A stretch of DNA of 64,000 bases. Origin: a virus. Every line of letters begins with the position of its first letter. Positions within the stretch are counted from its first letter, which is position 1. Shown piece after piece: positions 58,516-62,499 of the stretch. The notes beneath the pieces were generated by a model. The model had not been told where the DNA came from and did no database searches. It saw nothing but the letters and a program-made list of their open reading frames with translations. The DNA lies in IMG/VR virus record IMGVR_UViG_3300030329_003470, positions 1 to 64,000 of that record; one strand, written 5' to 3'. The position numbers and the translations under genes are program-made.

Positions 58516-58749
58516 TTATTTTCGATTATAGATATGATATAAAATCCAAACTGCTACCAAGCCAATCAGACCTTGATCTGAAAAACCTTGCAGTACGCCC
58601 TGGACGTTTCCAATTACAGAAACGTTTGGCCAGAACGGAATACCTTGACCGTTGAAAAGGATTTCTAAAACAATTCCTAACGCAATTAAAGATACTCCTA
58701 CGTCAGCAATTCCTTTTGCCCAATCCTTTACACTTTTAAGATAATCCAT
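58516..58749 (-). CDS. Small membrane protein with two spans, 77 aa
   Basis: Hydrophobic segments at about 15-33 (IADVGVSLIALGIVLEILF) and 58-73 (QGLIGLVAVWILYHIY), joined by a Gly/Asn loop, with a basic C-terminus YNRK. GGGAGG is ten bases before the ATG, a strong site. Late class; a hairpin at 58774-58789 lies in the leader. Size and topology would suit a holin but I see no specific evidence. Confidence 0.75.
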   Translation of the reverse strand: MDYLKSVKDWAKGIADVGVSLIALGIVLEILFNGQGIPFWPNVSVIGNVQGVLQGFSDQGLIGLVAVWILYHIYNRK

Positions 58750-58872: not shown

Positions 58873-59583
58873 CTACGTACAGAATTCTTCGTAAAGAAGA
58901 TAATCATAGCGGTTATAACCTCGGTGCCAATAAAGGAAGTCTTTTGACAAATTAGAAAATTTTACAATACGATTATAACTTTCTCCTGCTCTGTTTGAAT
59001 GTAATCTTGGTTCAGGAGTTACATTTAACTCTTTTGCAATTTCGTCCCACGATTCTTCAAATTTATCTGAATCAAAAACTTTTATAAAATTTTCTTTTAG
59101 TGCAGTTCTGGCTCTTTGATATTTTGTTTCTATAGGTAATGCATGAGTTTGTCCAAGATATTTTCCATAAATCCATAATGTTATAAAATTGCCAGACATT
59201 AATGAAAGATGAGTTGCAAAATCTTTATCTAACTCGTGTCCGTAATTACTATCATAGTTGAAATGTGATATATCTCTGTGTAAAGGATGTCTTATCCAAG
59301 TGTAATGTTTGCCAGGCTGTTCACTGTTTGTATAATGTCCACAAACTATTGATGCATCACCAGTAGATTGTTTTTCATATGTTCTAAGAAATGCTTGTTT
59401 GATTGGTTCTTTGGGATTGAATGCAGGATCTTCACTTACTCTGTAGTATCTTCTATCTCCATACAAAGGATACACAACTAAAGTTGAACCTTTTGGTAAT
59501 TGTCCTATGTATTCTCTATGAGCCAGTCGTAATTGTAGACTACTTCCTGCTGTTTTAGGTATATGATGAAAACAATATTGCAC
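58873..59583 (-). CDS. Sulfotransferase-like protein in the capsid module
   Basis: The protein has 236 residues. HHIPKTAGSS at 6-15 is the sulfate-donor loop, and YTWIRHPLHRDISHFNY near 94-110 the 3'-phosphate site. GTG start with TTTAAATA five bases before. It lies far from the glycan island, among virion genes, and has different flanks from the copy at 22101. It might modify a virion protein or host glycan. Confidence 0.75.
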   Translation of the reverse strand: MQYCFHHIPKTAGSSLQLRLAHREYIGQLPKGSTLVVYPLYGDRRYYRVSEDPAFNPKEPIKQAFLRTYEKQSTGDASIVCGHYTNSEQPGKHYTWIRHPLHRDISHFNYDSNYGHELDKDFATHLSLMSGNFITLWIYGKYLGQTHALPIETKYQRARTALKENFIKVFDSDKFEESWDEIAKELNVTPEPRLHSNRAGESYNRIVKFSNLSKDFLYWHRGYNRYDYLLYEEFCT

Positions 59584-59611: not shown

Positions 59612-60550
59612 TTATATTTTTTTGATTTTATCTAAAATGTCGTTACCAAAGAAGTCTTTGTATTTGTCATACAATGGTGACCATAAAGTTTTTAACTTGC
59701 TAATTTCTTCTTCTGGCCATGTAATAACTTCTTCAATACCTAATTTTTCTTGTTTAGATTCACTAGTCTTGATTTCTTCTGCGTCAGCAACTGATTGTGC
59801 TCTTTCTTTTCTTGCCGCTAAAAACCCAGCCTGTGTAAAATGTGTTTGATCTTCTGCACTCAACGAACTCCAGAAACTGTCATTCAATAAAATTGAAGTT
59901 ACATACATCGAATGTTTAGTATCTGCAACATATTTTTGTGATCTGTGTGCATCAGCATGATATCTAGGGTAAGTTGTTTGTGTAACATTAACTTTGTCCC
60001 AGTCTGTTTTTGAATCAGTTAAACGATCTACTTTTTTTGCACCTACCATGTCAATCATGTCAGCGTGTACAGGATTTCTCCATCTAGAATATGTTTTGCC
60101 AGCAAAATCTTCTATTGATCTTATAGGAGTGTTTGATGCTGTGCATCTGTATCCGCCTGAATATGTAAATGATAATCCACGTACCTGTGTCTTTTCATAT
60201 AGATGTGCAAAAAGTGATTTGCCAATTTCTCCTTCAAAAACTCTTGATGCATGATCGTGATCTTTGAATAGATAAGGCATTGATAAAGCATAAAAATCTG
60301 TAGCGTCATAATCGCCTAGTATATCAGAAAACAGTTGGCTACATTGTACTCTACCTTCTTTCAATTCTAAGAAAGGATCACAAATTAAACCGTCAAGATA
60401 CTTGTTTTGGTAGTCTGTAAGTGTAAGAATCTCTATCTCATACTTGTTATTTGTAAGTGTATCTAGATGTTTCTGAAAATCTTCAGCAGTTCTAATGAAA
60501 AGTTCTGCTGGTTCATGAAACAATAACCATTTAATTTTTTGTCTTGCCAT
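59612..60550 (-). CDS. TRAP solute-binding-protein (DctP-like) homologue without signal peptide
   Basis: The protein has 312 residues. YALSMPYLFKDHDHASRVFEGEIGKSLF is the DctP middle motif, GYRCTASNTPIRSIEDFAGKTY the ligand-side strand, and the C-terminal helices WSSLSAEDQTHFTQAGFLAA to RAQSVADAEEIKTSES are typical of TRAP binding proteins. It starts MARQKIKWLLFHEP and has no signal peptide. GGAG lies before the ATG under a CATAAATA late element, so strong late expression is expected. It stands between capsid and tail genes, so a virion or cytoplasmic role is likely, not transport. Confidence 0.75.
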   Translation of the reverse strand: MARQKIKWLLFHEPAELFIRTAEDFQKHLDTLTNNKYEIEILTLTDYQNKYLDGLICDPFLELKEGRVQCSQLFSDILGDYDATDFYALSMPYLFKDHDHASRVFEGEIGKSLFAHLYEKTQVRGLSFTYSGGYRCTASNTPIRSIEDFAGKTYSRWRNPVHADMIDMVGAKKVDRLTDSKTDWDKVNVTQTTYPRYHADAHRSQKYVADTKHSMYVTSILLNDSFWSSLSAEDQTHFTQAGFLAARKERAQSVADAEEIKTSESKQEKLGIEEVITWPEEEISKLKTLWSPLYDKYKDFFGNDILDKIKKI

Positions 60551-60571
60551 TGCTGTTCTCCTATAATGCTT

Positions 60572-60579
60572 TATTTATG
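60572..60579 (-). promoter_or_regulatory. Late promoter CATAAATA for the TRAP-like gene
   Basis: Leader of about 15 bases with TAGGAG before ATG 60550; overlaps the stop of the upstream gene. Confidence 0.5.
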
Positions 60580-61243
60580 CTATTTTTTCTGTATTATTAC
60601 CAATTATGGTATCTTCTAATTCTTTGTTGTTATACAGGTTAAAATACCATAGTTTATGCCCTATTTCAGTTAACATTTTATCTCTTATTTCGTCTTTTTC
60701 AGAGAACAAAAAGTTGTAACTAGCAACGTTCCAAAAATCACTTTTGGATCTAAACAAATTTGCCACTATTTTCCAATCATATGTATTGTCCTTAGGCAGT
60801 AGTTCTTGCATCGCCCTTTTATTTTTTGTAAGATGTGTCCAATGATTATCTTGTGGTTGTTCCCAAAATCCTATCTCACTGTTGTTTAATAGTTGTTGGA
60901 ATGTCCAATTTTTTAGCAAATAATCAAGGCTTTGTGATTTGTTTTTCTGTTTTTGCAGTGCTTCTATGTATTTTTTAGAAGTAGTAGACATTGTTGTAAT
61001 TTTTGGGAAGAAAGAATGCACAGTTGGATGAAAAAATTTATCACCTCTACTATCTAATATTATAATTTCATCTAATTGTTGTAAATTTAATAATGATTCA
61101 ACATATTGGAAATATTTTAATGTAGGTTTTGCTAACATTCTAACGTTAGGGCAAACAAGTACCATTTTATTTTTAATGTAATCAGCAAAGTTACCGTGTG
61201 ACAGTTGCATACCATCATAAATTTCAACATCAAAATTAAACAT
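60575..61243 (-). CDS. Redoxin-like protein next to gp23
   Basis: The protein has 222 residues. NKMVLVCPNVRMLAKPTLKY and LDEIIILDSRGDKFFHPTV recall the strand-helix and central strand of peroxiredoxins, but the catalytic Cys motif (TPxC) is missing. The C-terminal half is helical and aromatic (DYLLKNWTFQQLLNN, FWNVASYNFLF). CTTAAATA six bases before the ATG. Function uncertain; a redoxin-fold structural role is one option. Confidence 0.5.
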   Translation of the reverse strand: MFNFDVEIYDGMQLSHGNFADYIKNKMVLVCPNVRMLAKPTLKYFQYVESLLNLQQLDEIIILDSRGDKFFHPTVHSFFPKITTMSTTSKKYIEALQKQKNKSQSLDYLLKNWTFQQLLNNSEIGFWEQPQDNHWTHLTKNKRAMQELLPKDNTYDWKIVANLFRSKSDFWNVASYNFLFSEKDEIRDKMLTEIGHKLWYFNLYNNKELEDTIIGNNTEKIA

Positions 61244-61275: not shown

Positions 61276-61305
61276 AAAAAAAGGCGACATAAAGCCGCCT
61301 TTTTT
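61276..61305. terminator. Terminator after gp23
   Basis: A-run, GGCGAC-ATAAA-GCCGCC stem and T-run. The stem bases match those of 48778-48806. Confidence 0.85.
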
Positions 61306-61326
61306 CGAAAATTGGTAAGCCTTGGC

Positions 61327-62499
61327 TTACTTGAATTTTAAGTTTCCTGAAGTTACTGCTACTAATCCAACGTAGTCTGCCGCGTTACCTAGTGAAGATG
61401 CAGTGTTTGTTAATTCAACATAACCGTATCTTGTTAGGAAACCAACAACTGGTTCGAAAGTTGCAGGATCAAGAACAACGCCACTTGACATTAAAGGTAT
61501 GTAAGGACAGTAGAACGCCGGAGCGTCTGCCTCACTTGAACCTTTGTAACCAACTAGGATTGAAGTACCGTCAGCCGCGTATGCGTCTACGTATACTCTC
61601 ATTGAAGCATTTAACGTACCAACAAATTTTGTGTTAGTAGGTGCTTCAAATGTACCTTCAGTTGATCTTGCAAATGCTGAAGTTGTTGCTGATTGAAGAA
61701 TAGTTAAAGCAGTTGGAGATACTACCGCGTAGTTTCCAGCGCCTCTTCTAGTTCTTGTAGCGATTTGGTTTGCTACTCTGTTGATTAACACAGCCAAAGC
61801 CGCGTGTTCGTCACCAACGAAAGTTGCAGTACCAGATACAGCCGCTTGGTCAAAAGTTTCAGCGGCAGAGCCAGCCAAAGTTCTTAATGAACCAATGATT
61901 TCTTGGTCAATCTCAGCAGTAATCTCTTGAGCCAAAGCCGCCATGATTTCTGCTTCTACGTCTATACCTTGTTGTGCTTGAGCATCTTGAGCCGCTTCAA
62001 AAGTCCATCTTGCAGATAGTTTTCTTGATTTCGCCTCAACTGGTTGTTTCAAGATTTGAATTGATAATCTCTTACCAGGTGTACCTTCTAAAGATGCTGT
62101 AGAAGCCGCTTTAGGAGTTGTGTTGTTCTGGTTACCAGCGTATGCTTTCGCTATTTTGAACGGAGATAATGCTTCTTCACCAGCAGTTGTGTTCGAACTT
62201 ACTGTGTCTGCATATCTTATTCTTAGTGTGTGGATCTGTCCAACCGGACCAGTCATTGGTTGTACACCAACGATCTCGTTCGCTATAACAGTAGGCATAA
62301 CCCTACGTATTACTGGAAGAATCACTCTGTTTAGAGTAGCAACGTTACCTGCCGATGTAGCACCTGCAGTTGCTTGTTCTGACAAATATTTCTTAGTGTT
62401 TTCTAAGATAACATCCATCGTCTTTTTCTTGTTGCCGTCTAAACCTTCAGTTAGAGCCTGTTTAGTTTCGCTCCATTTAGATTCAAATAGTTCTGACAT
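61327..62499 (-). CDS. 23: Major capsid protein gp23
   Basis: The protein has 390 residues and an HK97 fold. LNRVILPVIRRVMPTVIANE, IVGVQPMTGPVGQIHTLRIRY and EAEIMAALAQEITAEIDQEI are hallmark gp23 segments. A protease-removable N-terminal region of about 40 to 60 residues precedes this core. T4 gp23 is 521, so this is a compact version. AAGGGG lies in the leader. Confidence 0.95.
   Translation of the reverse strand: MSELFESKWSETKQALTEGLDGNKKKTMDVILENTKKYLSEQATAGATSAGNVATLNRVILPVIRRVMPTVIANEIVGVQPMTGPVGQIHTLRIRYADTVSSNTTAGEEALSPFKIAKAYAGNQNNTTPKAASTASLEGTPGKRLSIQILKQPVEAKSRKLSARWTFEAAQDAQAQQGIDVEAEIMAALAQEITAEIDQEIIGSLRTLAGSAAETFDQAAVSGTATFVGDEHAALAVLINRVANQIATRTRRGAGNYAVVSPTALTILQSATTSAFARSTEGTFEAPTNTKFVGTLNASMRVYVDAYAADGTSILVGYKGSSEADAPAFYCPYIPLMSSGVVLDPATFEPVVGFLTRYGYVELTNTASSLGNAADYVGLVAVTSGNLKFK

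Follow-up and report, generated by a model that had tools for sequence, protein, structure and literature searches.

The window (the whole 64,000-nucleotide stretch that was analysed) was taken from a virus record 196,581 bp long, in which the capsid protein is of T4 type, and its source is a large uncultivated T4-like phage. Between the major capsid gene and a sulfotransferase-like reading frame it carries a gene for a DctP-like protein and, next to it, a gene for a Prx5-type peroxiredoxin that is catalytically dead as judged from its residues. In the window's clade the two form a two-gene cassette. The features of the locus, all on the minus strand, are as follows.

58873..59583 (-): sulfotransferase-like ORF with GTG start, context (PHROG E=0.025; HHIPKTAGSS motif)
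59612..60550 (-): DctP-fold protein without signal peptide, 312 aa, ATG start; Ser155 replaces the canonical ligand Arg; Arg135 and the family-specific Arg196 are retained
60557..60562 (-): Shine-Dalgarno AGGAGA, 6 nt before the ATG of the DctP-like gene
60572..60578 (-): late-promoter-like core ATAAATA (CATAAATA), about 21 nt upstream of the DctP-like start
60575..61243 (-): pseudo-peroxiredoxin of divergent Prx5 type, 222 aa, no catalytic Cys; conserved partner of the DctP-like gene
61276..61306 (-): Rho-independent terminator that follows gp23 and precedes the pseudo-peroxiredoxin gene
61327..62499 (-): major capsid protein gp23, context (PF07068, E=1.5e-98)

Identity and setting of the DctP-like gene

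The product of 59612-60550(-) matched Pfam DctP (PF03480) with E=4.3e-29 and 102 bits (cut-off 23.4). Its matches in the PDB were TRAP binding proteins, with a best E of 7.4e-16 when the single sequence was searched and of 2e-40 with the family profile, and the best Foldseek matches of its AlphaFold2 model (mean pLDDT 95.4, pTM 0.92) were likewise TRAP SBPs, e.g. SiaP. With sequence and fold both matching over the full length, the protein is a member of the DctP-fold family. Comparison with the nearest relatives gave dN/dS values of 0.05-0.20, showing that the gene is under strong purifying selection.

An earlier note on this DNA had described the gene as a host TRAP binding protein without signal peptide, repurposed in the capsid module of the phage and furnished with late-gene signals and a strong ribosome site. 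The DctP identity was borne out by the Pfam, PDB and structural matches, and the location after gp23 proved correct. The expression signals were also recovered, i.e. the AGGAGA element within a strong ribosome site (TATAGGAGAACAGCAATG) and the ATAAATA promoter-like core, which overlaps the partner gene's stop codon and is retained in four related contigs (L001, L003, L005, L012). Of the 15 ATAAATA cores on the minus strand of the window, 10 are followed by an ORF start within 80 bp, compared with a background rate of 6.4%.

The capsid module as functional setting was not supported. One gene (60575-61243) and the terminator lie between gp23 and the DctP-like ORF, and the hairpin after gp23 (-18.5 kcal/mol, z -3.5) is retained in relatives with compensatory stem changes, as judged by eye. 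Capsid gene and cassette adjoin only in the window's own lineage; other relatives are surrounded by replication, glycan, ClpP, PP-loop-like or exported TctC genes, and two (L019, L020) have a terminase-like gene as neighbour. Since the gp23 setting is limited to one lineage and a conserved terminator intervenes, the cassette gives the impression of a late unit of its own, and its nearness to gp23 is no evidence of a structural role.

On the other side of the DctP-like gene, the sulfotransferase-like ORF 58873-59583(-) is kept in the window's lineage. A 77-aa ORF at 58516-58749(-), with two hydrophobic stretches and holin-like by eye, is also retained in the lineage.

A phage family without export signal or visible tie to a transporter

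The missing signal peptide was confirmed. Upstream of the ATG the frame runs into an in-frame stop after 8 codons, leaving no room for a signal peptide, and an alternative upstream start that could add one was thus ruled out. Scanning viral contigs with a profile gave at least 317 that carry a relative of the DctP-like protein, and 80 of these relatives were fetched and examined. All 80 started 0-6 residues before the mature domain and none carried a signal peptide, and the DctP-like protein is accordingly one of a family of signal-less DctP proteins that is widespread among phages. TctC-type proteins encoded beside DctP-like copies of the sister lineages have clear signal peptides, and the absence in the DctP-like proteins is therefore real and specific, and no annotation artefact. 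No DctM or DctQ gene was found in the 196,581-bp phage record, which may be incomplete. Export signal, ligand Arg and DctQ/DctM partners, three marks of a TRAP binding protein, are in this way all missing from the DctP-like gene.

Gene clustering of the relatives separated two settings, that of the clade with the pseudo-peroxiredoxin (SH-aLRT 99 in a quick tree) and that of its sister lineages. Frequent neighbours in the latter were PP-loop-like proteins, exported TctC proteins (PF03401) and DUF2061 membrane proteins; the PP-loop-like assignment is based on an SGGxDS motif and weak QueC matches, and a comparison of PP-loop-like cluster 1 with the PDB gave no useful match. Neither TctC nor PP-loop-like genes were found in the window's own phage record. 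Exported TctC-type proteins of cluster 4 were seen beside DctP-like genes that keep the ligand Arg in eleven contigs (L036, L042, L043, L045, L048, L049, L053, L063, L066, L073 and L076). A split DctP-like copy was also observed, with two overlapping ORFs and the break between the halves (L033:3970-4927, L027:3977-4928); BFVD entries A0A6J7WI33 and A0A6J7WKL0 are probably the same arrangement. Among isolate phages no close relative was found, tblastn returning only two unannotated fecal records of 24-29% identity, and a search of the literature available found no paper describing these phage genes.

The closest cellular matches found were Bdellovibrionota (Bacteriovoracaceae genes) and MAG contigs, one of which, the gammaproteobacterial contig L092, resembles a phage contig in its gene neighbourhood. 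Identity to the TRAP-type DctP genes of other bacteria was below 30%, and an origin from a host TRAP system is not supported. Of the claim that a host TRAP protein had been repurposed in the capsid module, the signal-less DctP protein therefore stands, while the capsid setting and the proposed host TRAP or SAR11 origin lack support. Two Bacteriovoracaceae genomes have a signal-less copy between flagellin and housekeeping genes and a copy with signal peptide elsewhere. In both, the signal-less gene comes after a gene of cluster 42, near flagellin (L145:6213-7774, L148:5085-6646); phage cluster 42 is oxygenase-like by motif only. The DctM genes of Bacteriovorax LF-bin-345 are on other contigs, next to ordinary DctP genes, and in UBA6153 DctM is likewise on contigs other than that of the DctP-like relative. 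Because DctM sits apart in these bacteria, the family shows no evident link to TRAP transport even in its cellular members.

The pseudo-peroxiredoxin partner and the ligand site

A profile of the 60575-61243 product matched Prx5 peroxiredoxins (PDB 1nm3, E=5.4e-17) and also the phage's own intact Prx5. The catalytic Cys of the PxxxTxxC motif is absent, and on this ground the partner is classed as a catalytically dead peroxiredoxin. The intact Prx5-type peroxiredoxin of the same phage has the motif PGAFTPTC and is encoded at 147738-148271 of the record (L087:3738-4271(-)).

In the pseudo-peroxiredoxin clade the partner adjoins the DctP-like gene in all tree members except one MAG contig. The partner gene precedes the DctP-like gene in the window's lineage and follows it in the other lineages, and since both gene orders occur the adjacency has survived rearrangement. 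A scan starting from the pseudo-peroxiredoxin gave 9 loci, all on contigs with a DctP-like gene; close relatives only were covered, as the full partner alignment was too divergent and the close set was used. Searching isolate phages with the partner gene by tblastn gave no match.

In SiaP the Arg at position 147 is a carboxylate selectivity filter, and 96.8% of DctP proteins have Arg at this position (Fischer 2015, PMC4646407). The earlier note had suggested that the carboxylate-binding Arg be checked, and in the alignment it is lost, Ser155 of the window protein taking the Arg147 position (SiaP numbering from PMC9352664 and PMC4646407). The same column is not Arg in 28 of the 29 sequences of the pseudo-peroxiredoxin clade (Arg in one, Lys in two), whereas all 26 sequences of the sister phage lineages have Arg. 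Pairing and Arg loss coincide in one clade and are hence not independent events. The three members that retain Lys or Arg belong to one subclade within the pseudo-peroxiredoxin clade, which suggests that pairing with the pseudo-peroxiredoxin preceded the loss of the Arg.

Other conserved residues are kept. Spacing and alignment place the retained Arg135 at the position of SiaP Arg127, and Arg196 is invariant across the phage family and non-Arg in the five canonical proteins aligned. HEP, TYSGG, TT-PR, H213, T218 and ER are invariant or nearly so in the pseudo-peroxiredoxin clade, and from the sequence alignment the conserved residues are predicted to line the cleft.

Possible function and comparison with known systems

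Phage-carried binding proteins are usually read as uptake helpers. The family described here, with relatives in at least 317 viral contigs, has the opposite pattern, every copy examined lacking the export signal. One large clade has lost the ligand clamp too, and there a redox partner that appears to be dead is fixed alongside. The most likely reading, which we hold with moderate confidence, is that the DctP-like protein is a cytosolic, non-transport ligand-binding module that works with the pseudo-peroxiredoxin. The TRAP-type fold would then stay in the cytoplasm and no longer serve transport, and its cleft would still bind something other than a simple carboxylate. The pseudo-peroxiredoxin may be the physical partner or the effector of the DctP-like protein, and closure on the ligand could switch or hold it in the infected cell, late in infection. 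More tentatively, the pair could be a phage device, a binding protein and a peroxiredoxin both without their original activity, that acts as cytosolic sensor, sponge or host-takeover complex in many large phages and for which no counterpart has been described. Such a device would illustrate how phages reuse host folds for tasks within the infected cell, and the DctP-like protein with its pseudo-peroxiredoxin makes a clear, testable protein pair.

The main rival, which we regard as rather unlikely, is a virion protein in this lineage, made late and decorating or filling the head or tail, perhaps together with the pseudo-peroxiredoxin, and possibly binding a host-surface ligand. The gene has its own late-type promoter, with gp23, tail-fibre-like and holin-like genes nearby, and the relatives beside a terminase-like gene point the same way. 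However, the head neighbourhood is not kept among relatives with replication, glycan, ClpP or PP-loop-like genes, a terminator separates gp23 from the DctP-like gene, and on two bacterial chromosomes signal-less members are neighbours of flagellin genes. Somewhat less probable still is a pure scaffold, where the DctP fold no longer binds a ligand and only offers a docking surface to the pseudo-peroxiredoxin or some other protein. A ligand-Arg site that has lost this residue and varies freely (A, Y, V, S, G, T, I and others) would fit this, as would a partner that itself has lost catalysis, but the motifs expected at the cleft (HEP, TYSGG, TT-PR) stay invariant.

Some cytosolic proteins of this general binding-protein fold are enzymes, and the DctP-like protein might likewise act catalytically in a small-molecule pathway. 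In the sister lineages the Arg is conserved and the neighbours include PP-loop-like clusters 1 and 3 as well as cluster 42, but the window's phage record has no PP-loop-like gene of clusters 1 and 3, and the PP-loop and oxygenase assignments are those by motif and weak QueC match given above; we consider an enzyme improbable. That the phage supplies a binding protein of its own to enhance a host TRAP transporter has in its favour the membership in the DctP family, but the lack of a signal peptide in the family, the loss of the ligand Arg and the absence of DctQM from the phage record already contradict it at the sequence level, and we give it hardly any credence.

The fold itself has been seen in phages, since uncultured Caudovirales entries in BFVD are labelled DctP/TeaA and PBP2_Bug_TTT. 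Their annotation is automatic only, and no study of them was found; two of the DctP/TeaA entries correspond by length and description to the halves of the split copy. The orphan DctP proteins of Bacteriovoracaceae (UBA6153, Bacteriovorax LF-bin-345) are 36-37% identical to the phage protein and share TYSGG, STY-R or SAWPR, and HSLFLTS, with one signal-less paralog per genome, and these relatives are located away from DctM. They differ in keeping the ligand Arg, in having another paralog with a signal peptide, and in the lack of a pseudo-peroxiredoxin alongside. The partner aligns with Prx5 peroxiredoxins such as HI0572 (PDB 1nm3) across the domain (E=5e-17), and also with the true Prx5 of the phage, but it lacks the motif with the catalytic Cys and has additional sequence at its C-terminus. 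With the TRAP binding proteins (PF03480, e.g. SiaP) the phage protein has in common the full-length fold (TM-score about 0.8) and R135, the equivalent of SiaP R127. In contrast to them it has neither signal peptide nor membrane partners, Ser takes the Arg147 position in the window protein, with various residues there across the clade, and a family-specific Arg196 is invariant.
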